A stretch of DNA of 34,159 bases from Chloroflexota bacterium (GTDB lineage: Bacteria; Chloroflexota; Anaerolineae; Aggregatilineales; Phototrophicaceae): contig VXNO01000086.1 in the NCBI GenBank assembly GCA_009840575.1, positions 1 through 34,159 on the forward strand. The letters are read 5' to 3'. Below, one piece after another: positions 9,349-33,101 of the stretch. The number at the start of each line of letters is the position of its first letter. Within the stretch, counting starts at the first letter, position 1. Both the position numbers and the translations under genes were made by a program. The notes under the pieces are model-generated. The model made no database searches and was not told the origin of the DNA. It was given only the letters and a program-made list of their open reading frames with translations.

Positions 9349-9377
9349 TTGCCAAGTCCGCTACTATCGCCTATAGT
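9349..9377 (+). promoter_or_regulatory. Promoter of the chelatase gene
   Basis: TTGCCA at 9349-9354, 17-base spacer, TATAGT at 9372-9377. Transcription would start near 9384 and give a leader of about 35 bases before the ATG at 9419. Confidence 0.6.
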
Positions 9378-9418
9378 TGCGCATTCAATTGTCCTGGAGC
9401 GAGCCAAGCGGAGTCGTC

Positions 9419-10540
9419 ATGAGCAATCGACCGCCTGTTTATCCCTTCACCGCCATTGTCGGCCAAGACATGATGAAGCTGGCGCTGATCCTCAATGCTA
9501 TCGACATGCGTATTGGCGGCGTCTTGATCCGCGGCGAACGCGGCACTGGCAAGTCGACAGCGGCGCGCGCCTTGGCTGCCCTGCTGCCACAGATCAGCGT
9601 CATCGCCGATTCGCCATTTAATGACGACCCGGCTCGCCCCGAAAGCTGGTCGGACTTCGCCCGCCAGAAGTACGCCGACAGCGCCGACGTCCCCAGCCAA
9701 AAGCGGCGCATCAGCTTCGTAGACCTGCCGGTCAGCGCGACCGAAGACCGCGTCGTCGGCACCTTGGATATCGAAAAAGCTATCCAACTGGGCGAGCGGC
9801 ATTTTGATACCGGCGTGCTGGCAAACGCCAACCGCGGCATTTTGTATGTGGACGAGATCAACCTGCTGGATGACCACATCGTCGATCTGCTGCTGGATAG
9901 CGCGGCTATGGGCGTGAATATCGTCGAGCGCGAGGGCATCAGTTTCAGCCACCCCGCCCGTTTCATCCTGGTCGGCACCATGAACCCCGAAGAAGGTGAC
10001 CTGCGCCCGCAATTGCTGGACAGGTTCGCGCTTTCGGTTGATGTTACCGGCATCAAAGAAGCGCGCGAACGGATCGAAATCCTCGAGAGGCACATCGCCT
10101 ATGAAAACGGCCCGCTGGACTTCAAAGCGGAATGGCAGCCTGTCGACCAGCAGCTATCCGACCGCATCGCCGCTGCCCGCGAAATCATCGACCAGGTAAC
10201 GCATACTACCCAGGACCTGCGCGTCATCGCCAGCATCACCAGCGACCTGCGCATTGATGGGCACCGCGCCGACCTGGTGATTCTGAAAGCCGCGCGCGCC
10301 CATGCCGCCTACGAAGGGCGAACCGTCATCAATGACCGCGATATCACCCTGGCCATCCGTCTGACCATCCCGCACCGGCTCAAGCGCGGCCCTTTCAATG
10401 ATGCCCAAGCCGACCTCAACGCGGTCGAATCAGCGGTGGATGAAAAACGGCAGGAACTCGGCGAAGGCGAAGAAACGGGCGAGTTCAGCGACGAGAGCGA
10501 CGAAAACGCCGCGCAGTCTAAAAAAAAAGTGAGTCGGTAA
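9419..10540 (+). CDS. Magnesium/cobalt chelatase-type AAA+ ATPase (ChlI/BchI-like; N-terminal part of ChlD)
   Basis: Read in one frame this is a 373-residue AAA+ ATPase the size of a chelatase small subunit. It starts at ATG 9419, after GGAG in the leader. The N-terminus YPFTAIVGQDMMKLALILNA is typical. Walker A GERGTGKST is at residues 39-47 and Walker B ILYVDEINLLDD near 141-152. The sensor region GTMNPEEGDLRPQLLDRF and a C-terminal helical lid follow. The tail becomes acidic (ELGEGEETGEFSDESDEN) and ends four codons after three AAA lysine codons. In the ChlD family this acidic linker leads into a VWA domain, and that domain is found immediately downstream in the -1 frame. This product is therefore either a stand-alone small subunit or the early-terminated form of a 692-residue protein made by frameshifting. 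Confidence 0.9.
   Translation: MSNRPPVYPFTAIVGQDMMKLALILNAIDMRIGGVLIRGERGTGKSTAARALAALLPQISVIADSPFNDDPARPESWSDFARQKYADSADVPSQKRRISFVDLPVSATEDRVVGTLDIEKAIQLGERHFDTGVLANANRGILYVDEINLLDDHIVDLLLDSAAMGVNIVEREGISFSHPARFILVGTMNPEEGDLRPQLLDRFALSVDVTGIKEARERIEILERHIAYENGPLDFKAEWQPVDQQLSDRIAAAREIIDQVTHTTQDLRVIASITSDLRIDGHRADLVILKAARAHAAYEGRTVINDRDITLAIRLTIPHRLKRGPFNDAQADLNAVESAVDEKRQELGEGEETGEFSDESDENAAQSKKKVSR
10520..10528 (+). other. A9 slippery run: probable -1 frameshift or transcriptional slippage site
   Basis: Nine consecutive A bases give zero-frame codons AAA AAA AAA, a standard A-AAA-AAA -1 slippery heptamer. The zero frame stops at 10538-10540. The -1 frame is closed just upstream by TAA at 10519-10521, so the two frames can be joined only inside this 19-base interval, which is filled by the A run. 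After a -1 shift the acidic linker continues (SESVSGEGEQTEQELSQAE) into a VWA domain. A possible weak downstream pairing TCGGT/ACCGA (around 10533-10565) is seen. Ribosomal slippage and RNA-polymerase slippage cannot be told apart from the sequence. A homopolymer sequencing error is the alternative. Confidence 0.75.
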
Positions 10541-22681: not shown

Positions 22682-23583
22682 CAGTTCGCTCGTTCCTTCG
22701 CAAGTTGCCCAGCCCAGCGCGGCGGCGGCTTATGCGCGGCGGCTTGCAACAGGCGCCCATAGTGCTGTGGTTTGCGCTGGTGCATCAAAGGGAAGAGCGC
22801 CAGGTATTGTTCACGCATATCAGCGCGCAGCACCGCGTCTATCACCTGGTCGCTATCGCGGCTGGCTTGAGCGAGGACATTGCCCAGCGGGTCGCAGATG
22901 AAGCTGCTGCCATAAAAGGTAACGGCATTTTCGTGTCCCGTACGGTTGCAGGCGGCGATAAATACGCCATTCGCCACGGCGTGCCCGCGCATCACCAGCT
23001 GCCAGGCGGCGGCAGAATCGAAATCGGGCGCAGTCGGCTCGCTGCCGATGGCGGTGGGATAAAATATAAACTCCGCGCCTTCCAGGGCGTAAATGCGCGC
23101 CAACTCCGGGAACCATTGGTCGTAGCAGGTTGGCGCAGCCAGCTTCAGCGCGCCGATATCGTGCACGGGATATTGCCCCGCGCCAGCAAAATAGTCGGTC
23201 TCGTGATAGCCATCGCCGGACGGGATATGCACTTTGCGGGTGAGGCCTTTCAGCCTGCCAGCCGGGTCATGCAGGGTGGCTGTGTCCCAGTAGTCGCCAG
23301 CCGCATCGCGTTCAAACAGGCTGCCGATGAGAAACACGCCGTGCCGCCCTGCCAGTTCGCTGAAGAAGCGCTCGGATACGCCGCCGGGAATAGGCTCTGC
23401 CCAGCGAAATCCAGCTCGGTCGCGCACCCCAGGGAAGTAGGGCAAGATGGTGAATTCGGGCAAACAGACCAGCTCCGCGCCGGTTGCGGCGGCCTGCGCC
23501 ACCAGCTCGCGATAGAGCGCTTGTGTGCTGGCCTGGTCGCCCGTCCAGCGCCCTTGCGCCAGGGCGATGTGCAGGTCTTTCAT
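22681..23583 (-). CDS. Carbon-nitrogen hydrolase, N-carbamoylputrescine amidase-like
   Basis: 300 residues of the nitrilase superfamily. The Glu-Lys-Cys triad is Glu43 (CLPEFTILPYFPG), Lys117 (RKVHIPSGDGYHETDYF) and Cys153 (APTCYDQWFPELARIYAL). The Cys block with DQWFPE, followed by FYPTAIGSEPTAP, resembles AguB (N-carbamoylputrescine to putrescine, CO2 and ammonia) and beta-ureidopropionase more than aliphatic nitrilases. The neighbouring flavin amine oxidase and divergent polyamine importer support a polyamine substrate. The ATG at 23583 overlaps the amine oxidase stop (ATGA) and is at the family N-terminus (MKDLHIALAQ). A 35-codon upstream extension is rejected. The assignment to AguB is probable, not proven. 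Confidence 0.87.
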   Translation of the reverse strand: MKDLHIALAQGRWTGDQASTQALYRELVAQAAATGAELVCLPEFTILPYFPGVRDRAGFRWAEPIPGGVSERFFSELAGRHGVFLIGSLFERDAAGDYWDTATLHDPAGRLKGLTRKVHIPSGDGYHETDYFAGAGQYPVHDIGALKLAAPTCYDQWFPELARIYALEGAEFIFYPTAIGSEPTAPDFDSAAAWQLVMRGHAVANGVFIAACNRTGHENAVTFYGSSFICDPLGNVLAQASRDSDQVIDAVLRADMREQYLALFPLMHQRKPQHYGRLLQAAAHKPPPRWAGQLAKERAN

Positions 23584-24848
23584 GCCCCTGCCTCCGCGAT
23601 GATCTCTTGCGCCGCTCGCTGCCCGGTGTGATATGCGCCGTGCACCGTCGCCGCCATGTGATGGGGCGCGCTGGCTTCGCCCGCCCAATAGAGTGGCGGC
23701 GTGGGCTGCGCCAGTTTGTCACGCGCGGCATAATGACCGGGCAAACAGACACTATAGCCGCCCAGCGCAAATTCATCGTAATTCCAAGCCACCCAGCGCG
23801 ACTTGCTGGCGCGCAGGTCGGGCTGGTCAATCTCTTCGCGCAGTGTCGCCAAGCTTTTTTCGAGCGCGGCTGCTTCGCCCAGTTCCAGCAATTCCCGTGC
23901 ATAATCGCCGGTGGCAAATGCTGTCCAGACGACCGAGCCGCCTTGCCTGCCCAAAGAAGGCGACCACCACATGGGCGGGCAGCCAGCCGCATAGATCGCG
24001 CCGATTTTGGGGTCGAGTATGGGCGCGTCAAAAAGGTAGACCAGCTTGAGCACGGGTCCCATCTGCAAGCCAGCCAGCGCCTCGTTTTTGACAGCTGGCA
24101 GAATAGGCGCGAACCGCACCCGCGCAGCTTGCAGCACTGCCAGCGGCAAGGTAATCACGGCGACATCGGCGCAGTAGATCTCCCCAGAAGCCGTATGCGC
24201 CCGCAGGCCATGCGACCAGTCGATATGGCTGACCGCGCAATTCAGATGAATATCCAGCCCCGCCGCCAACTGCGAAGTATAGGCGTAATAGCCATCCAGA
24301 ATGCGGTGGTCGCTGTAATCTTCGTTGGCATCGCTGTCATGGAACAAATGGGCATGCGACTTGGCATTGAGGAAACGCATGTCATCGCCCTCGGCATTGG
24401 CGAAGGAGCGCTGCGCATAACGCATTTGCGCCGGGCTGAAGCCGATGCGCCGCAGGTAGCTGCCCAGGTCTTCGTTATCGCGCGGCTCAGGCGCGTCGCC
24501 CAACTGCCAAGAGCGCGTTACATCCAGCTCGGCTGATTGCGCACGCGCCTCGCCCATCGTCAGCCATTCGCCGCTTTCGGTGCGGATCATGGAATCATCA
24601 AGCTTGTTCCAGTGCCAAGTACGCAAGCCCAATTTGCGAACCCAGCGCCAGGTATTGACTTCCGCGCCGCGCCCGTGGATCAACTCCGCGCCGAACTCGA
24701 CCGGGATATCGGCAAAGTCGCGGTTGGTCCAGACTCTCCCGCCGATGCGATCTCGCGCTTCCAGCACGGTCGCGTCTATGCCGGCTTGTTTCAGATGATG
24801 GGCAGCCGAAAGCCCGGCGATGCCCGCGCCAATGACGATGACGTTCAT
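23580..24848 (-). CDS. Flavin monoamine/polyamine oxidase family protein
   Basis: 422 residues. The FAD-binding Rossmann motif VIGAGIAGLSAAHHLKQAG is at the N-terminus and LEARDRIGGRVWTNRDF follows. The C-terminus carries YWAGEASAPHHMAATVHGAY, the closing FAD motif of amine oxidases. The segment GAELIHG is also typical. Such enzymes oxidise amines to aldehydes or imines with release of hydrogen peroxide; there is no signal peptide, so it is likely cytoplasmic. It lies 6 bases after the GNAT gene and overlaps the hydrolase gene by four bases. Together with the potBCDA importer on the other strand, this suggests putrescine, spermidine or a related amine as substrate (inference). Confidence 0.9.
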   Translation of the reverse strand: MNVIVIGAGIAGLSAAHHLKQAGIDATVLEARDRIGGRVWTNRDFADIPVEFGAELIHGRGAEVNTWRWVRKLGLRTWHWNKLDDSMIRTESGEWLTMGEARAQSAELDVTRSWQLGDAPEPRDNEDLGSYLRRIGFSPAQMRYAQRSFANAEGDDMRFLNAKSHAHLFHDSDANEDYSDHRILDGYYAYTSQLAAGLDIHLNCAVSHIDWSHGLRAHTASGEIYCADVAVITLPLAVLQAARVRFAPILPAVKNEALAGLQMGPVLKLVYLFDAPILDPKIGAIYAAGCPPMWWSPSLGRQGGSVVWTAFATGDYARELLELGEAAALEKSLATLREEIDQPDLRASKSRWVAWNYDEFALGGYSVCLPGHYAARDKLAQPTPPLYWAGEASAPHHMAATVHGAYHTGQRAAQEIIAEAGA

Positions 24849-24854
24849 CTAAGT

Positions 24855-25508
24855 TCAATGTTCTCCAAAATAGGGATTCTCCCACATCAGCAAAACGCCG
24901 GCGTTGCCTGCGGACGGCGCCTCCATGTAATCGCGAACTAATTCGCTTCCGAACTCTGGAGGCCGCAATCCACATTTTATCATTCGTGTCACTAGCGGAT
25001 CCGACTTGTTTCTCCGAATCACCTCTGACGCATAGTCCTCCAACTCCATCTCTTCAGCCGCCTGCTGGTATCCAACAAGTAGAGGCACCGCGTATACACC
25101 TTGCAGACCTAACTGTACAGCTAATGTTAAGCAGGAACGAATGAGAGCGCTGCCCATTCCGCCACCACGATACCGGGGGTCAACCCAGAGCAACACAACA
25201 TAGAGCCATAGTCCATCTGGCTCATGACCGGCGAGCGTTTTATCGCCAATTGCTTCAAGCCAAGGAAGAGCGTCTTCATAAGGCGTCCGAGAAGTCCTCA
25301 ACGTGGCGCAGACACCAAAGTTAGCGGCACGTCGATCGCCTATGAATTGCCCTTCAGGAAATCTTTCGACGTGAGCCTGGAAATGATCATAGCCGAATGC
25401 CAGATGACGTATACCGGTGCGCCATGGGGGCGCTCTAAGAATATAGCCTCCCTTCCAACGTTCTACGATATAGTTGTCGACTTCTGGGTGATAGTTGCCA
25501 TTTGGCAT
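24855..25508 (-). CDS. GNAT-family acetyltransferase (paralogue A)
   Basis: 217 residues from ATG 25508; a TTG at 25532, six bases after the upstream stop, is an alternative start. The acetyl-CoA loop appears as DPRYRGGGMGSALIRSC, after a strand LWLYVVLLWV. The protein shares an unusual layout with its neighbour at 25539-26435: HxERFPEGQF, then LPWLEAIGD, then a C-terminal domain ending in GNAGVLLMWENPYF. It is thus a diverged tandem duplicate. Its codon use is much less GC-rich than that of both neighbours, which suggests a different history. It is translationally linked to the amine oxidase (6-base gap). The substrate could be a polyamine or amine, but nothing in the sequence proves it. Confidence 0.8.
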   Translation of the reverse strand: MPNGNYHPEVDNYIVERWKGGYILRAPPWRTGIRHLAFGYDHFQAHVERFPEGQFIGDRRAANFGVCATLRTSRTPYEDALPWLEAIGDKTLAGHEPDGLWLYVVLLWVDPRYRGGGMGSALIRSCLTLAVQLGLQGVYAVPLLVGYQQAAEEMELEDYASEVIRRNKSDPLVTRMIKCGLRPPEFGSELVRDYMEAPSAGNAGVLLMWENPYFGEH

Positions 25509-25538
25509 CTGAACTGCCCCAGTCAGAATCAAAGAGCG

Positions 25539-26435
25539 CTACCGCGCTGAGTAATCCGCATTCTCCCAGACAATTAGCACTCCCGCGTCGCCAGCCTGTG
25601 GCTCGTCGTCATAGTCTGTCACCACCTTCACCGCGCGGAAGCCACGATTCATCTGCATGGTCACGGTCGGGTCTTTTATCTCGCGGGCGATGACTTTCTG
25701 TCCATATTCGCGCACATCCATCTGCTCGGCGTAGTCGTGATAACCCATGAGCATGCCGACCGCATACCAGCCGCGCAGGTTGAGGGCGCGCGCCAGATCA
25801 AAGCGGACTTTGTATAAAGCCGTGCCGATGCCATTACGGCGATAGATCGGGTTCACCGCCACCTCCACGCCATAGAGCCAGTCGCCTTCGGGCTCGTGCG
25901 CCGCCAACTGGTAATCGCCGATGGCTTCAACCCAAGGCAGCACGGGCGCGGTGGGCGGGCGCGATGTGCGCATGGCGGATGCCATGCCGACGGCATTGCC
26001 CGCGCCGGGACCGCCCGTGCGAATGGCGACGAATTGCCCCTGCGGGAAGCGCTCAATATGCGCCAGGATGTCTTCTTCACTGAAGCAGCCTGCTTCTTCC
26101 CTTTGGTAAGCATAATCAATGGTAACGGCTGCCGAGCCCGCTGTCCAATGCTGGGTATGCAAAATGGAGATGCCTGGCAAACCCAACAGAACATCGCGCT
26201 CATCGTATTCGCGCAGCCACCAGCTATCGAAGCTCATGTGCAAGATACGCTGCCCCTTTGCGTCGGTCGTATAGTAGGGTTCGTAGGGGTCGATTTCCTC
26301 GCCAGTCTCTTGGCTCGCTTTTTTCGCGGCTTCTTCGATCAAGTGCTTTTGGATATCCGGGTAGTCGTAATCGAGTATCCGCTTTATATCGGAAGCATCG
26401 GGAACATCGGGTTGGTCGTCTTTGTGATTTGACAT
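25539..26435 (-). CDS. GNAT-family acetyltransferase (paralogue B)
   Basis: 298 residues. An acidic N-terminal extension of about 90 residues (DIKRILDYDYPDIQKHLIEEA) precedes the GNAT core. The core has HIERFPQGQFVAIRTGGPG, LPWVEAIGDYQLAAHEP, the acetyl-CoA site VNPIYRRNGIGTALYKV, and a C-terminal domain with GFRAVKVVTDYDDEP and GVLIVWENADY. The ATG at 26435 has GAGGAGGT about 12 bases upstream. It is probably the first gene of the leftward operon. Its GC content is normal for the window, unlike paralogue A. The C-terminal domain is also found in paralogue C at 32390-33019. Confidence 0.85.
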   Translation of the reverse strand: MSNHKDDQPDVPDASDIKRILDYDYPDIQKHLIEEAAKKASQETGEEIDPYEPYYTTDAKGQRILHMSFDSWWLREYDERDVLLGLPGISILHTQHWTAGSAAVTIDYAYQREEAGCFSEEDILAHIERFPQGQFVAIRTGGPGAGNAVGMASAMRTSRPPTAPVLPWVEAIGDYQLAAHEPEGDWLYGVEVAVNPIYRRNGIGTALYKVRFDLARALNLRGWYAVGMLMGYHDYAEQMDVREYGQKVIAREIKDPTVTMQMNRGFRAVKVVTDYDDEPQAGDAGVLIVWENADYSAR

Positions 26436-26699: not shown

Positions 26700-27557
26700 G
26701 TGTCCAGGTGGTTTCGGCGCTCACAGAAAGACGGTTCGCTGCTGGCATTGCCGACGGCGCTGTGGCTGCTGGTCTTTTTTGTGCTGCCTTTGGTAATTGT
26801 GCTGGGCGTCAGTTTGATGTCGCGGGGGCGCGGTGGCGTGGCGCAGATGCCGCTGACCCTAACGCATTATGAACGCACCTTCGGCATCTTTTCGATCATT
26901 TTGTGGCGGTCGATTGGGCTGGCTGGCTTGACGACGGTCCTTTGCCTGCTGGTCGGCTATCCGCTGGCATTTTTTATCAGTACCCGCCGCCGGCGCATCG
27001 TCCAGCAGAGCGCGCTCTTCCTGGTCATCCTGCCATTTTGGACGAACTTCCTCATCCGCACCTATGCCTGGCGCATCTTGCTGGGCGAAGAAGGCACGAT
27101 CAACGGCGTCCTGCGCGCGCTGGGTATCATCGGCGAGCCATTGCAACTACTGAATACGCAATTCGCGGTGCTGGTGGGCTTGGTGTATGGCTTCTTACCG
27201 TTTATGGCGCTGCCCATATTCGCGTCGGTCGAGCGCTTCAACTTCCGTTATGTGGATGCCGCGCAGGACCTGGGGGCGAATGAAACGCGGACTTTCCTGC
27301 GCGTCGTCTTGCCCTTGACCATGCCGGGCGTGCTGGCGGGCTGCGCGCTGGTCTTCATCCCATCCGTGGGCGCATTCGTCACGCCGGACTTGCTGGGCGG
27401 CACCAAAGGGCTGATGATTGGCAATTTGATTAACAACCAGTTCGGCGGCTCGGGCAATATGCCGCTGGGCTCGGCATTGTCGATTGTGATGATGGCTGTG
27501 GTGATGCTGTCGCTGCTGGTCTATGTCTTCGGCAATCGGCGGGGGGCGGGGTTGTAA
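26700..27557 (+). CDS. potB: Spermidine/putrescine-type ABC transporter permease PotB
   Basis: 285 residues with six transmembrane helices, one half of the membrane channel of a PotABCD-type importer. The family N-terminus LLALPTALWLLVFFVLPLVIVLG is present, and so is the QSALFLVILPFWTNFLIRTYAW block typical of PotB. The EAA-like cytoplasmic loop is DAAQDLGANETRTFLRVVLPLTMPG. The start is GTG at 26700, with GGAAGG about 10 bases upstream. Its TAA overlaps the potC ATG (TAATG). Substrate assignment rests on family resemblance and the presence of all four Pot components; related importers for opines or other amines cannot be excluded. Confidence 0.92.
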   Translation: MSRWFRRSQKDGSLLALPTALWLLVFFVLPLVIVLGVSLMSRGRGGVAQMPLTLTHYERTFGIFSIILWRSIGLAGLTTVLCLLVGYPLAFFISTRRRRIVQQSALFLVILPFWTNFLIRTYAWRILLGEEGTINGVLRALGIIGEPLQLLNTQFAVLVGLVYGFLPFMALPIFASVERFNFRYVDAAQDLGANETRTFLRVVLPLTMPGVLAGCALVFIPSVGAFVTPDLLGGTKGLMIGNLINNQFGGSGNMPLGSALSIVMMAVVMLSLLVYVFGNRRGAGL

Positions 27558-28450
27558 TGGCGCAGGCATTAATCAACGAAGGCGCGCTGGGGCGCAACCG
27601 GCGCGTCAAGCGGCTGGGCAGGCTGTGCCTGTGGCTGAACCCGCTGGTCGCTTATTTCTTCTTGTGGGCGCCTATCCTGGTGCTGGTGTTATTTTCATTC
27701 AATCAGAGCAAATCGGTGGCTTCATTCACTGGCTTCACACTGAAGTGGTACAGCAATATCCTCAACAATGTAGTCGGCGCGGAAAGCGCGTTTTCTACCG
27801 AGCTCATGCTCAACGCCTTTCGCAACAGCCTGTTCGTGGGCGCGATCGCCACAGCAATTGCCACCGTCCTGGGCACCATGATCGCCCTGTCCATGGCGCG
27901 CGGCAGCTTCCCTGGCAAGCGTCTGCTGGACGGCTTGCTCTTCCTGCCGGTGGTCATCCCGGAGATTACGCAAGCCATCTCGCTGGCGATCTTCTTCAAA
28001 GTGGCTTTTGACTGGATTCACCTGCTCAGTGGCGAGCGCGTCTTCCCCGGCTTCCACACCATCATCATGGCGCATGTCACATTCAATATCTCCTATGTGG
28101 CGATTGTCGTGCGGGCGCGGCTGGCGGATATGGACCCGACCCTGGAAGAAGCGGCGAGCGACCTGGGCGCAAACCCCTGGCAGACCTTCTGGCGCGTCAC
28201 TTTCCCCTTGATTTTGCCTGGCGTGATCGCGGGCGCGCTGCTGGCATTTACACTGTCGCTGGACGACTTCGTCATCACCTTTTTCACTTCTGGCGTGGGC
28301 ACGACCACCCTGCCCGTCTTCGTCTATGGCTTGCTGAAACTGACTGTCACGCCCGAGGTCAACGCCATCTCGACAATTATGATGCTTTTGAGTACATTTC
28401 TTATAGGCATCTCGCTGGCATTGCAGGGGCGTGGCGCGTCCCGAAGCTAG
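27557..28450 (+). CDS. potC: Spermidine/putrescine-type ABC transporter permease PotC
   Basis: 297 residues, six transmembrane helices. PotC marks are YFFLWAPILVLVLFSFNQSK near the N-terminus, the FLPVVIPEITQAISLAIFF helix, and the EAA loop EEAASDLGANPWQTFWRVTFPL. FTLSLDDFVITFFTSGVGT closes the pattern. It forms the second half of the channel with PotB. The start ATG at 27557 overlaps the potB stop by one base, and the stop precedes potD by 31 bases with a strong ribosome-binding site. Confidence 0.93.
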   Translation: MAQALINEGALGRNRRVKRLGRLCLWLNPLVAYFFLWAPILVLVLFSFNQSKSVASFTGFTLKWYSNILNNVVGAESAFSTELMLNAFRNSLFVGAIATAIATVLGTMIALSMARGSFPGKRLLDGLLFLPVVIPEITQAISLAIFFKVAFDWIHLLSGERVFPGFHTIIMAHVTFNISYVAIVVRARLADMDPTLEEAASDLGANPWQTFWRVTFPLILPGVIAGALLAFTLSLDDFVITFFTSGVGTTTLPVFVYGLLKLTVTPEVNAISTIMMLLSTFLIGISLALQGRGASRS

Positions 28451-28481
28451 TCCATTTTTGTATTCGCTGAGGAGGAAAAAC

Positions 28482-29561
28482 ATGAAACACATTCTTGTTC
28501 TGATACTGGCGGTATTGCTGGTTTTCCCAGCCGCTGCGGACGACGACATGGCGGCATGGAGCTGTCCGGAAGGCTATGAAGGGCAGACGCTGAGCATCTT
28601 CAACTGGTCGACCTATATCGCGGAAGACACTGTGCCCAATTTCGAAGCGGCTTGCGGCGTCACAGTCAATTACGACATCTACGAGAGCAACGAAGCCATG
28701 CTGGCGCGCATCCGCCAGGGCAACCCGGGCTATGACCTGGTCGTACCCAGCGGCGGCACCGTGCAGCGCATGGCGGAAGAAACGCTGCTCGTCCCGATTG
28801 ACCTGGAGATGATCCCCAATGTCGCCAATGTAATCGAAGACTTCCTCGCCCCGGCTTTCGACCCCGAAAATATGTACTCCCTGCCCTACCAGTGGGGCAC
28901 CCTGGGCGTTGGCTATCGCGTTGATGCCTTCCCCGATGGCATCAGCAGTTGGGATGACATTTGGGCTTATGACGGCAGTGTCGCCTGGATTGACGATCGC
29001 GACTCGATGTTTGGCATCGCGCTGACGATTTTGGGTTATGACCCCAATACCACCAACGGCGACGAAATCAACGAAGCGCGTGATTATCTCATTGAACACG
29101 GCGGCAATGTCGTAACGGTCGCCGCCGATGACGGACAGGTCTTGCTCGAGCGCGGCGAAGTCGATGTAGCGGTCGAATACAGCGGCGATATTTCGCAAAT
29201 TCAGTGGGACTGCGAATGCGAGGATTATGCCTATGTCCTGCCCGGCGGCGTGGGCAATGTCTGGTTCGATAACATGGCTATCCCGGTTGATGCGCCCAAC
29301 CCCGAACTGGCGATGGTCTTTATGGACTACATCCTCGATGCCAAGGTCGGCGCGGACTTGACGAACTACATCTGGTACGCCTCGCCCAACCAAGCCTCGA
29401 TCGACTCGGGCTATATCGACGAAGAAATTCTCAATGACCCGACGGTCTTCCCGCCCGCCGACCAGATGGCGAACCTCTTCGTCATCATCGACAAAGGCGC
29501 GGAAGCCGAGCAACTGATCAACGATGCCTGGGACGAGCTGCTGATTTTCCTGGGGCAATAG
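28482..29561 (+). CDS. potD: Spermidine/putrescine-binding protein PotD-like
   Basis: 359 residues. A Sec signal peptide (MKHILVLILAVLLVFPAAA) precedes the mature protein; there is no lipobox cysteine, so anchoring is not evident. The mature start GQTLSIFNWSTYIAEDTVPNF is the classic PotD/PotF opening, and ESNEAMLARIRQGNPGYDLVVPS follows. LPYQWGTLGVGYR and the acidic pocket residues around VEYSGDISQIQWDCECEDY fit a polyamine-binding fold. The Asp/Glu-rich composition suits cationic ligands. GAGGAGG stands 7 bases before the ATG at 28482; the 17-codon upstream extension is rejected. Confidence 0.92.
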   Translation: MKHILVLILAVLLVFPAAADDDMAAWSCPEGYEGQTLSIFNWSTYIAEDTVPNFEAACGVTVNYDIYESNEAMLARIRQGNPGYDLVVPSGGTVQRMAEETLLVPIDLEMIPNVANVIEDFLAPAFDPENMYSLPYQWGTLGVGYRVDAFPDGISSWDDIWAYDGSVAWIDDRDSMFGIALTILGYDPNTTNGDEINEARDYLIEHGGNVVTVAADDGQVLLERGEVDVAVEYSGDISQIQWDCECEDYAYVLPGGVGNVWFDNMAIPVDAPNPELAMVFMDYILDAKVGADLTNYIWYASPNQASIDSGYIDEEILNDPTVFPPADQMANLFVIIDKGAEAEQLINDAWDELLIFLGQ

Positions 29562-29621: not shown

Positions 29622-30737
29622 ATGACTGCATTCGACGTAGAGCTCATCGACATCGTCAAAGACTTCGACTCCGGCGGCGGGCGCGTGCGGGCGGTCGACC
29701 ATGTCAATGTGCAGATCGCCGATGGCGAGTTCTTCGCGCTGTTGGGACCCAGCGGCTGCGGCAAGACGACCACCCTGCGCTTAATCGCCGGTTTTGAACA
29801 ACCGTCGTCGGGGCGCGTCTTAATCCGCGGGCGCGCCATGGAGGGCATCCCGGCTTATCATCGTCCTGTCAACACGGTCTTCCAGGATTACGCGCTCTTC
29901 CCGCATCTGACGGTCGAGCAGAACATCATGTTCGGCTTGCAGATGGAAGGCGTGGACAAAAAAGAGGCGCAGAAACGGGCGCTGGAATCGCTGGAGCAGG
30001 TGCGCTTGCCCGGCGTGGGCAGGCGTCGACCGCACCAGCTTTCGGGCGGGCAGCAACAGCGGGTGGCGCTGGCGCGGGCGCTGGTCAAACAGCCGGCGGT
30101 ACTGCTGCTGGACGAGCCACTGGGCGCGCTGGATTTGAAATTGCGCAAGAATATGCAGGTTGAGCTCAAGGCGCTGCAGCGGGATGTAGGCATCACTTTC
30201 ATCTATGTAACGCACGACCAGGAAGAAGCCATCACCATGGCCGACCGCATCGCTGTGATGAACCAAGGCGAAATGCTGCAAGTCGGCGGCCCCAAAGAAA
30301 TCTACGAGCGGCCCGGCACGCACTTCGTAGCCGACTTCATCGGAGAGACCAACTTCGTCGATGGCACTTTGGTAGAGCGAGATGCGGACGGTTTTGGCAG
30401 GGTCAAGCTGATGAACGACGCTGTTATCCGCGCGCAGCTTTCGCATACGCTGGCGGCAAGCGATGGGCCGGTGCTGGTGGCAATCCGTCCTGAGCGCATC
30501 ACTATCAGCCCTGCCAATGCCGAGCCAGCTGAGCGGGGCACAACATCGCTGCCCGCCAAGCTGGTCGATAGCCAATACATCGGCACGGATACGCGCTACA
30601 TATTGCGAATCGGCGAGACAATTGAGCTGGTGGCGCGCTTGCAGAACCTCGACGACAGGCCCAAAGCGATATTCGCTGTCGGGCAGGCGGTCACAGTCCG
30701 CTGGAGCGATGCCAGCACGACAGTCCTGGATCACTGA
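29622..30737 (+). CDS. potA: Spermidine/putrescine-type ABC transporter ATPase PotA
   Basis: 371 residues. Walker A GPSGCGKTT is at 42-50, the Q-loop in TVFQDYALFPHLTVEQN, the signature LSGGQQQ at 140-146, Walker B LLLDEP at 161-166, and the switch His in YVTHDQEEAITMADR. A C-terminal TOBE-like regulatory domain follows from about residue 245 (ETNFVDGTLVERD) with PVLVAIRPERITISP. It energises PotBC. In most operons potA is first; here it is last, behind the potD hairpin. The next gene's ATG follows eight bases after the stop, so the dehalogenase homologue is in the same transcript. Confidence 0.95.
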   Translation: MTAFDVELIDIVKDFDSGGGRVRAVDHVNVQIADGEFFALLGPSGCGKTTTLRLIAGFEQPSSGRVLIRGRAMEGIPAYHRPVNTVFQDYALFPHLTVEQNIMFGLQMEGVDKKEAQKRALESLEQVRLPGVGRRRPHQLSGGQQQRVALARALVKQPAVLLLDEPLGALDLKLRKNMQVELKALQRDVGITFIYVTHDQEEAITMADRIAVMNQGEMLQVGGPKEIYERPGTHFVADFIGETNFVDGTLVERDADGFGRVKLMNDAVIRAQLSHTLAASDGPVLVAIRPERITISPANAEPAERGTTSLPAKLVDSQYIGTDTRYILRIGETIELVARLQNLDDRPKAIFAVGQAVTVRWSDASTTVLDH

Positions 30738-30744
30738 GGCGGCT

Positions 30745-31962
30745 ATGCCACAAGCCCTGCTCGCCCCCGACCAGATCGCCACGATTGACAGCTCCGCGCA
30801 TCAGCCATTGGATGCCAAGACCGGCTTCGTGGTGACGGAGGAGTTCAAGCGCTTCAACCAGAAATACGACATGTTCAATCGCGCCGTTTGGGATGAAGAA
30901 GTGCGTTCGCCGCGGGCGCAGAAATTCTTCGAATCCTACTTTACCGACCTCGCGCAATTCCGCACGGTTGAGGGCTTCCAACATCGTGATTATGCCCTGC
31001 GCAACGCCGCCTGGTACATCGCCGATTTCACCGCCGACCTGCTGGAACTCTCCGACGACCGCAAAGAAGGCTTCCTGGACAGCTACACCATGTTCCGCGA
31101 GGGCGCGACCCGGCAGCTAAACGCCCCGCCCGAGCAGCACAGCGCGGAGCTGAAACGGGCCGCCCGCTTCCTCGGCTGCGATGCCGTAGGCATCTGCGAC
31201 TTTGACGAGCGCTGGGTGTATACACACCGATACAGCCGCCAGCAACTGCGCGACAAGGAGATGGATTTGCCCGCCGGCTTGACGCATGTGGTCGTCATCG
31301 TGAATGAGTTGGATCATGAGACCATCCGCACAGTGCCATCGGCATTGAGCGGGGCGGCGACGGGCCAGGGCTACAGCCGCGACATCATCGGCGCGCTTTC
31401 GGTGGCGCAATACATCCGCAACCTTGGCTATCGCGCTGTCGCCAGCCTCAACGATACGGCGCTGTCTATCCCGCTGGCCATCCAAGCCGGCTTGGGACAG
31501 TACGGGCGGCATGGCTTGCTGATTACGCCGCAATATGGTCCGCGCGTGCGCATCGCCAAAGTCTTCACCGACTTGCCGCTGCTGGCGGACGAGCCTATTG
31601 ATTTCGGCGTTACAGAGACCTGCCATCTCTGCCGCCGCTGCAGCGATGGCTGCCCGGTTAAGGCGATACCGGCGGACGCGCCGAGTCTCGAAGCGCCCAA
31701 CAACGTCTCGCACTTGCAAGGCGTCAAGAAGTGGACGATTGATGCCCGGCGCTGCTTCCAATTTTGGGCGAATCAAGGCACGGATTGTTCGATCTGCATC
31801 CGCGTCTGCCCCTACAACAAAGATTTCAGCAAGCCATTTAACCGGCTTTTGGGCTGGATGTTGGGCAATCGCTGGCGGCGGCTGGCGCTGTGGCTGGATG
31901 AAAAACTGAACTACGGCGAACGCAAACGAGCCGGCTGGTGGTGGCGGGCTGCTGATGGCTAA
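30745..31962 (+). CDS. Corrinoid/iron-sulfur reductive dehalogenase-like protein (RdhA/PceA family), cytoplasmic type
   Basis: 405 residues. The vitamin-B12-binding core opens with ELKRAARFLGCDAVGICDFD and WVYTHRYS. Residues in register with the PceA active site Tyr246/Asn272/Arg305 are Tyr210 (GYSRDI), Asn236 (SLNDTALSIPLA) and Arg269 (GPRVRIAKVFTDLPL). The spacings of 26 and 33 residues are identical. Two ferredoxin clusters follow: Cys293-x2-Cys-x2-Cys-x3-CysPro (CHLCRRCSDGCP) and Cys337-x10-Cys348-x2-Cys-x3-CysPro (CSICIRVCPYNK). There is no twin-arginine signal and no RdhB gene, so it should be cytosolic. QueG shares the fold but lacks this Tyr/Asn/Arg pattern. The start ATG 30745 has GAGG 5 bases upstream. 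Substrate unknown. Confidence 0.88.
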   Translation: MPQALLAPDQIATIDSSAHQPLDAKTGFVVTEEFKRFNQKYDMFNRAVWDEEVRSPRAQKFFESYFTDLAQFRTVEGFQHRDYALRNAAWYIADFTADLLELSDDRKEGFLDSYTMFREGATRQLNAPPEQHSAELKRAARFLGCDAVGICDFDERWVYTHRYSRQQLRDKEMDLPAGLTHVVVIVNELDHETIRTVPSALSGAATGQGYSRDIIGALSVAQYIRNLGYRAVASLNDTALSIPLAIQAGLGQYGRHGLLITPQYGPRVRIAKVFTDLPLLADEPIDFGVTETCHLCRRCSDGCPVKAIPADAPSLEAPNNVSHLQGVKKWTIDARRCFQFWANQGTDCSICIRVCPYNKDFSKPFNRLLGWMLGNRWRRLALWLDEKLNYGERKRAGWWWRAADG

Positions 31963-32365
31963 GTGGCTGGCGCTTTTGCTACGTGGCTGCCTGGCGCTGG
32001 GCTGGACGGCGCTGCTATGCCTGCTGCTGCTCCAGCCAGAAGCCGACCCCCTGCTCGACCTGGGTATCCCCGAAGGCGAGAACACGATTTTGCGCGAGCT
32101 AGCTTTTGGCGCGGTGCATCTGGCTGCCTTCGCCTTCACATGCAGCTTGTGGACATGGACGTTTGTAGCGCGCTTTCGCCTGCAATCCAGTCTGCTGGCG
32201 GCTGTGGCGATATCGATCGCGCTGGGCTGCTTCACCGAGCTGGGGCAATCCCTCACGCCTGACCGCTACCCGTCCTGGCTGGATATCGGCGCGAATATCA
32301 CCGGCGCTTTGATTGCCGCGCGCCTGATGTGGCACCCGTCAAGCCCTGTCGAACTATCCGTGTAG
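31955..32365 (+). CDS. VanZ-like family membrane protein
   Basis: 136 residues with about four transmembrane helices. The VanZ pattern is seen in the second half: Glu in CFTELGQSLTPDRYPSWLD, then Asp, then an Asn-Ile-Thr-Gly-Ala helix (ANITGALIAARL), which corresponds to the family E-x2-Q...R...D...N-x2-G residues. The ATG overlaps the end of the dehalogenase homologue by eight bases, which suggests coupled translation. VanZ-like proteins have no firm biochemical role; a membrane docking role for the Fe-S protein is only speculation. The stop TAG is the beginning of a GGGGCGAG inverted repeat. Confidence 0.82.
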   Translation: MAKWLALLLRGCLALGWTALLCLLLLQPEADPLLDLGIPEGENTILRELAFGAVHLAAFAFTCSLWTWTFVARFRLQSSLLAAVAISIALGCFTELGQSLTPDRYPSWLDIGANITGALIAARLMWHPSSPVELSV

Positions 32366-32389: not shown

Positions 32390-33019
32390 CTAGCCTGCAC
32401 GATACTCCGGGTTCTGCCAGACGATCAGCGTCGCCCAGTTGTCGCTGGCTGCGTCTTCGATATAGTCGCGCAGCAAGCCACGCACTTCAAAGCCGCGCCC
32501 CAATTGGAAAGACAAGGTGTTGTCGCGCAGTTGCCCCTGCACCACCTTGTCCACATAGTTTTGCGGCGTCATGGCATGTTTGTAGTCCGCGAAGCCGGGG
32601 ATCAGCCCGCCCGCCACGATGCCACGCCGGTTGAGGCGCTGGACGATGCCTTTGCGCGCCGCATACAGCCGCGAGCCAATCCCGCGCCGCCGATATTCGG
32701 GATGCACGCTGATATCGCTGCCGTAATACCAATCGCCGGCCGGGTCATGCTGGCTGTACCAGCCGCCATCGATGATCTCTTGATAGCTGTGCTGGGCATC
32801 ATCCAAGTCGAAGTCAATCAAAAAGCCCGAGCCCAAGCCGACAACCCGCTCGTCGGCCAGCGCCACGAAATTGCCTTCGGGGAAGAGGCGACAATGATTA
32901 AGAAAATGCTGCGCATTCATCAATTCGCCAGCGGCAAGCGTGGGGAAGCAATCACGCTGCAGTTGCTCCAGCGCGGCGGCATGTCGCGGCTGGATGGTTT
33001 GGATGCGGATGTCGTCCAT
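32390..33019 (-). CDS. GNAT-family acetyltransferase (paralogue C)
   Basis: 209 residues from ATG 33019 (MDDIRIQTIQPRHAAALEQLQ). A TTG at 33088 would add 23 residues but lacks a ribosome-binding site. The acetyl-CoA site is SVHPEYRRRGIGSRLYAARKG. PEGNFVALADERVVGLGSGF precedes it. The C-terminal domain contains YVDKVVQGQLRDNTLSFQLG and ends DNWATLIVWQNPEY, the same arrangement as in paralogues A and B. This GNAT type is, from memory, the one fused to a carbon-nitrogen hydrolase in YhcX-like proteins. It is convergent with the VanZ-like gene. Confidence 0.87.
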   Translation of the reverse strand: MDDIRIQTIQPRHAAALEQLQRDCFPTLAAGELMNAQHFLNHCRLFPEGNFVALADERVVGLGSGFLIDFDLDDAQHSYQEIIDGGWYSQHDPAGDWYYGSDISVHPEYRRRGIGSRLYAARKGIVQRLNRRGIVAGGLIPGFADYKHAMTPQNYVDKVVQGQLRDNTLSFQLGRGFEVRGLLRDYIEDAASDNWATLIVWQNPEYRAG

Positions 33020-33101
33020 AGCTGGTGGATGCCCTGCCCTTGCCGATAGCTCCTGAGAAGTATCGCCCGATTCATGCCAGAAATCCAAAATTGGACTGCA
33101 A

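Follow-up and report, generated by a model that had tools for sequence, protein, structure and literature searches.

The gene at positions 30745–31962 on the forward strand of a 34,159-nucleotide contig of a Chloroflexota bacterium (the window, meaning the whole stretch of DNA that was analysed) encodes a 405-residue-long cytosolic homologue of the reductive dehalogenase RdhA. The protein is likely to be a stand-alone RdhA-family reductive dehalogenase with a halogenated aromatic substrate, for which a bromo- or iodophenol is the foremost candidate. It probably takes bromine or iodine off aromatic compounds inside an oxygen-breathing bacterium.

Product, fold and active site of the RdhA homologue

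Profile searches with the 405-residue-long protein gave 191.1 bits for TIGR02486 (cut-off 160.35) and 27.4 bits for PF13486 (cut-off 24.3), and the protein has a double 4Fe-4S domain. The original prediction of an RdhA homologue in this reading frame is thus borne out by both curated cut-offs, and its coordinates are right. The gene is under purifying selection, with dN/dS values of 0.08–0.11 relative to four relatives. As had been predicted, the N-terminus contains no Tat motif, and it also has no transmembrane stretch; respiratory RdhA controls were positive for both. The Tat signal is absent from 39 of 40 aligned relatives, and the remaining one has a motif match without a hydrophobic stretch. 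TatC is encoded in the genome of the window. The chain stops at residue 405 and does not include a C-terminal reductase domain. The earlier reading noted this absence correctly, but it is nothing out of the ordinary, as the whole clade is without a fused reductase. No redox partner gene linked to rdhA was found, and no dehalogenation-pathway genes lie beside rdhA in the window. The absence of an RdhB partner, also noted earlier, is borne out only in part: the next gene, at 31955–32365 on the forward strand, encodes a VanZ-family membrane protein that nothing marks as an RdhB. It overlaps the rdhA stop by eight bases, an arrangement that the window shares with its nearest relatives. Elsewhere in the genus, many members have an open reading frame of 110–140 codons without a Pfam match between rdhA and the VanZ-family gene.

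The most similar proteins of known structure are the tetrachloroethene reductive dehalogenases PceA of Desulfitobacterium hafniense (8q4h, phmmer E = 1.6e-57) and Sulfurospirillum multivorans (4uqu, E = 2.7e-49), and the profile match to PceA has a value of 7e-71. An AlphaFold2 model built from a 41-member alignment has a mean pLDDT of 87.7 and a pTM of 0.88. Comparison of the model with known structures by VIA-align places it nearest to PceA of D. hafniense (Z 41.2, 368 residues, 2.2 Å), followed by S. multivorans PceA entries, among them complexes with halophenols (Z 36–38), NpRdhA (Z 32–33), and QueG (Z 14–15 over about 200 residues). The predicted structure thus resembles RdhA rather than QueG, in line with the earlier proposal of an RdhA homologue. 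The fold shared with the two PceA enzymes (Z 41 and 37) extends over nearly the whole chain, and the match over 368 residues indicates that the N-terminal region of the model also has the RdhA fold. The window protein and PceA have in common the Tyr, Asn, Arg, and Trp residues of the pocket and two 4Fe-4S clusters; however, their sequences are only 28–34% identical. Furthermore, PceA is exported by the Tat system, anchored to the membrane by RdhB, and respiratory, whereas the window protein lacks the Tat signal and is cytosolic.

Residues 170–400 of the window protein align to residues 206–436 of S. multivorans PceA with a constant offset of +36 and without gaps through the active site. The correspondence of Tyr210 (codon 31372–31374), Asn236 (31450–31452), and Arg269 (31549–31551), all on the forward strand, to PceA Tyr246, the proposed proton donor, Asn272, and Arg305 had been suggested from their equal spacing. 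The ungapped alignment establishes the residues as homologous, and they are invariant in all 53 family sequences. The two complete cysteine clusters that had been described are also present. The first cluster motif, CHLCRRCSDGCP (Cys293–Pro304, 31621–31656, forward strand), fits CXXCXXCXXXCP and provides C293, C296, C299, and C303. The second group begins with Cys337 (codon 31753–31755, forward strand) and continues with C348, C351, and C355 in CSICIRVCP (Cys348–Pro356, 31786–31812, forward strand), which fits CXXCXXXCP. The eight cysteines are conserved almost without exception among 53 relatives, with C355 replaced in one sequence from a metagenome-assembled genome (MAG).

The counterpart of PceA Trp376 is the conserved Trp341. 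Position 382 of the PceA pocket, a tyrosine, is occupied by Asp347 in the window protein, so the range of substrates may differ. Asp347 was considered as a signature of an amine-binding pocket; however, one Sulfurospirillum RdhA has an aspartate in the same column, and the residue is therefore not specific. Sequence alignment gave no confident counterparts of PceA Phe38, Trp56, Trp96, and Tyr102.

A clade of cytosolic RdhA proteins that probably includes a tested debrominase

A scan of GTDB genomes identified 171 related stretches, of which the best 80 were retained. About 33 of these 80 are from Anaerolineae and have 70–92% identity to the window protein. The remainder, with 48–56% identity, belong to Binatota, Gemmatimonadota, Acidobacteriota, Deinococcota, Actinomycetota, Planctomycetota, Myxococcota, Latescibacterota, Fidelibacterota, Pseudomonadota (including Thioglobus/SUP05), and other Chloroflexota. 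The clade spans at least ten bacterial phyla. The phylogenetic tree, which was obtained by a short search and carries single-branch support only, also included QueG, RdhA of the respiratory type from Dehalococcoidia and Sulfurospirillum, further RdhA homologues of Chloroflexota, and the fused catabolic RdhA of Comamonas 7D-2, Nitratireductor, Jannaschia, and Ruegeria. The window protein is positioned inside a 53-member clade (SH-aLRT 99), apart from respiratory RdhA and from the fused BhbA/NpRdhA enzymes.

Although NpRdhA and BhbA are cytosolic and their catalytic domain has the same fold as the window protein (Z 33), they contain a vestigial N-terminal domain and the C-terminal reductase that the window protein lacks. 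In the core alignment, they have Asp at the position of Asn236 and Lys at that of Arg269. They form a clade of their own. The architecture together with the tree rules out that the window protein is of the fused type. QueG, the tRNA epoxyqueuosine reductase, has the cobalamin-binding core and the double 4Fe-4S domain in common with the window protein, but superposes onto it over only about 200 residues and is separated from the 53-member clade with an SH-aLRT of 100. The window protein scores 65 bits against the QueG profile TIGR00276, which has a cut-off of 200, and the same genome encodes a separate QueG with a score of 342 bits. Membership in QueG is ruled out by the score, the tree, the structure, and the separate genomic QueG, and the placement of the protein outside QueG, for which the original prediction had called for a phylogeny, is confirmed.

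Of 81 members, 80 carry the signature C-x-[IV]-C-x-R-[VT]-C-P in the second cluster, which follows the first cluster motif with nearly constant spacing, whereas none of 38 outsiders has it. The mean column identity within the family is 59%. The signature may serve as a simple sorter of Tat-less RdhA homologues for picking assay candidates. An alphaproteobacterial protein that has been biochemically tested, Ros_A3X954 of Roseobacter sp. MED193, does not have a Tat signal and debrominates 2,6-dibromophenol (PMC13101508). Its relative from Pararhodobacter, A0A2T7UTL8, likewise a catabolic enzyme without a Tat signal and 72% identical, deiodinates triiodophenol (PMC13101508). In Ros_A3X954, PF13486 covers residues 174–269, CDICTKCADACP is located at 283–294, and CAICMRVCP at 337–345 (PMC13101508). 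Ros_A3X954, compared here by its published motifs and coordinates, shares with the window protein the clade signature in the form C-x-I-C-x-R-V-C-P, the 54-residue spacing, and the step of 14 residues from the end of PF13486 to the first cluster (279 to 293 in the window protein). The domain and clusters have nearly the same residue numbers in the two proteins, which argues against an NpRdhA-type vestigial N-terminal domain. Judged by these motifs and coordinates, Ros_A3X954 probably belongs to the clade of the window protein. The shared signature makes a cytosolic halophenol reductase the most likely function of the window protein and points to a halophenol as its substrate. To our knowledge, no activity has been reported for any member from Chloroflexota.

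Gene neighbourhood and alternative substrates

The rdhA gene follows four genes on the forward strand that were assigned by homology to a polyamine importer: a potB-like permease (26700–27557), a potC-like permease (27557–28450), a potD/potF-like solute-binding protein (28431–29561), and a potA-like ATPase (29622–30737). The PotD-like protein scores 171–184 bits against equivalog cut-offs of 582–636, and the label "polyamine" therefore rests on homology. The potA stop at 30737 and the rdhA start at 30745 are separated by seven bases, which makes co-transcription of the two genes in the window plausible. The block lies between related genes for GNAT acetyltransferases, three in all, on the reverse strand (24855–26435 and 32390–33088). 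A gene for an FAD-dependent amine-oxidase-like protein (23580–24848) adjoins the GNAT genes, and gene order in the block is collinear across the genus.

The original prediction suggested that RdhA may act on a substrate, here taken to be an amine, that is brought in by the adjacent Pot ABC transporter or handled together with it. The pot cassette and rdhA are neighbours in most of the genus, where the order GNAT-potB-potC-potD-potA-rdhA is frequent, and the seven- to eight-base gap in the subclade of the window would suit this model. However, collinearity extends to the GNAT genes and pdxS on the flanks, so the adjacency of pot and rdhA looks like background synteny. The gap is about 12–170 bases in most other genomes, 282–489 in several, and 787 in one (L030). 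One member of the genus (G399) has the complete pot cassette, but no rdhA in the 2.5 kb behind potA, and two genomes of the same family (G240 and G355) have the cassette without rdhA. Conversely, rdhA is found without pot genes nearby in the sister genera (G345 and G386), and pot genes are not a shared neighbour of rdhA among the loci from other phyla, so the orthologues do not always follow potBCDA. Presence, absence, and spacing do not support a functional coupling with potBCDA; the adjacency is a lineage-level arrangement rather than a mark of shared function, and an imported amine is a very improbable substrate.

No rdhA neighbour that could provide a clue to the substrate or redox partner is conserved across the phyla, and the neighbours differ among Binatota, Gemmatimonadota, and Thioglobus. 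In two Anaerolineales MAGs, a NIPSNAP-domain gene is located directly after rdhA (L069:7240–7563, a Pfam match, and L079:5491–5877, of the same cluster). PrnB uses chlorotryptophan as a substrate in pyrrolnitrin synthesis, and PrnB-family genes (L067:2–1117 and L070:1872–3086; 584 and 614 bits) are divergent from rdhA in two gammaproteobacterial MAGs. Four other loci of the same gammaproteobacterial subclade (L064, L074, L080, and L081) contain HgmA, fumarylacetoacetase, and an SNF-family symporter within about 5 kb downstream of rdhA. For this subclade alone, these neighbours hint at halogenated aromatic amino acids. A dehalogenase of halotyrosine or halotryptophan that feeds tyrosine or tryptophan catabolism is improbable in the window, because such neighbours were not seen in other lineages, and a search for the homogentisate dioxygenase HgmA, carried out as a test of the halotyrosine reading, found none in the genome of the window. 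It is quite improbable, too, that RdhA debrominates a tyrosine- or tryptophan-derived metabolite of a sponge host, possibly an amine, imported by the neighbouring transporter, as an aerobic cytosolic counterpart of anaerobic Desulfoluna debrominators. A reductase with the RdhA fold that uses B12 to convert a non-halogenated metabolite, as QueG converts epoxyqueuosine, is unlikely. The very broad retention over many phyla, including aerobes, the missing fixed dehalogenation neighbourhood, and the mean column identity, which suggests a defined metabolite, are in its favour; however, PceA and not QueG is closest in both fold and sequence, the Tyr, Asn, and Arg residues and Trp341 are retained, and the clade signature is that of a tested debrominase.

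Proposed reaction and sponge setting

The reading preferred here is the reductive dehalogenation of a halophenol. By analogy with the mechanism of PceA and NpRdhA (PMC5500849), a base-off cobamide would be reduced to Co(I) via the two 4Fe-4S clusters, which would receive electrons from a putative low-potential donor, ferredoxin or flavodoxin. A halogenated aromatic substrate, with bromo- and iodophenols as the likeliest candidates, would bind above the cobalt with its phenol ring by Tyr210. Tyr210 would donate a proton during cleavage of the carbon-halogen bond, assisted by Arg269 and Asn236. The halide would be expelled and the dehalogenated aromatic would remain in the cytosol, where the reaction would serve detoxification or the salvage of carbon. 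The genome of the window contains the cobamide-related genes for CobS and the B12-dependent methionine synthase MetH, and a haem-copper oxidase gene. The prediction of a B12-dependent reductase with a non-respiratory function fits the sequence of a cytosolic RdhA homologue outside QueG, with the non-respiratory role presumed.

The rdhA homologue is present in 31 of the 33 genomes of the genus and is sparse in the rest of the family. One copy, in the genome G425, is broken by a frame change. In a related genus, a decayed remnant encoding the last 83 residues of RdhA is located behind an unrelated gene (L176, G240:C253, about 9360–9605). Brominated aromatics are abundant in sponges. Many close relatives bear isolate names (RHO, COS, CAR, and APA) that match the set of sponge MAGs of PMC8163846, which suggests that the genus is mostly sponge-derived. 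Sponge Chloroflexi have been reconstructed as aerobic heterotrophs (PMC6306507), and the debrominators known from sponges belong to the anaerobic Desulfoluna (PMC12203066). Dehalogenation is not mentioned in the main text of the genome papers on sponge symbionts PMC6306507 and PMC8163846.

The window protein is an ordinary but under-described cytosolic RdhA, a further member of a kind that is already known. It is of moderate interest because of its retention throughout the genus and the spread of its clade over phyla that include aerobes. Cytosolic RdhA is carried by almost all genomes of a sponge-associated genus of Anaerolineae that appears to be aerobic, and relatives of it by at least nine further phyla. 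If the proposed function is correct, oxygenated habitats would therefore host reductive dehalogenation more widely than the organohalide-respiring specialists suggest.
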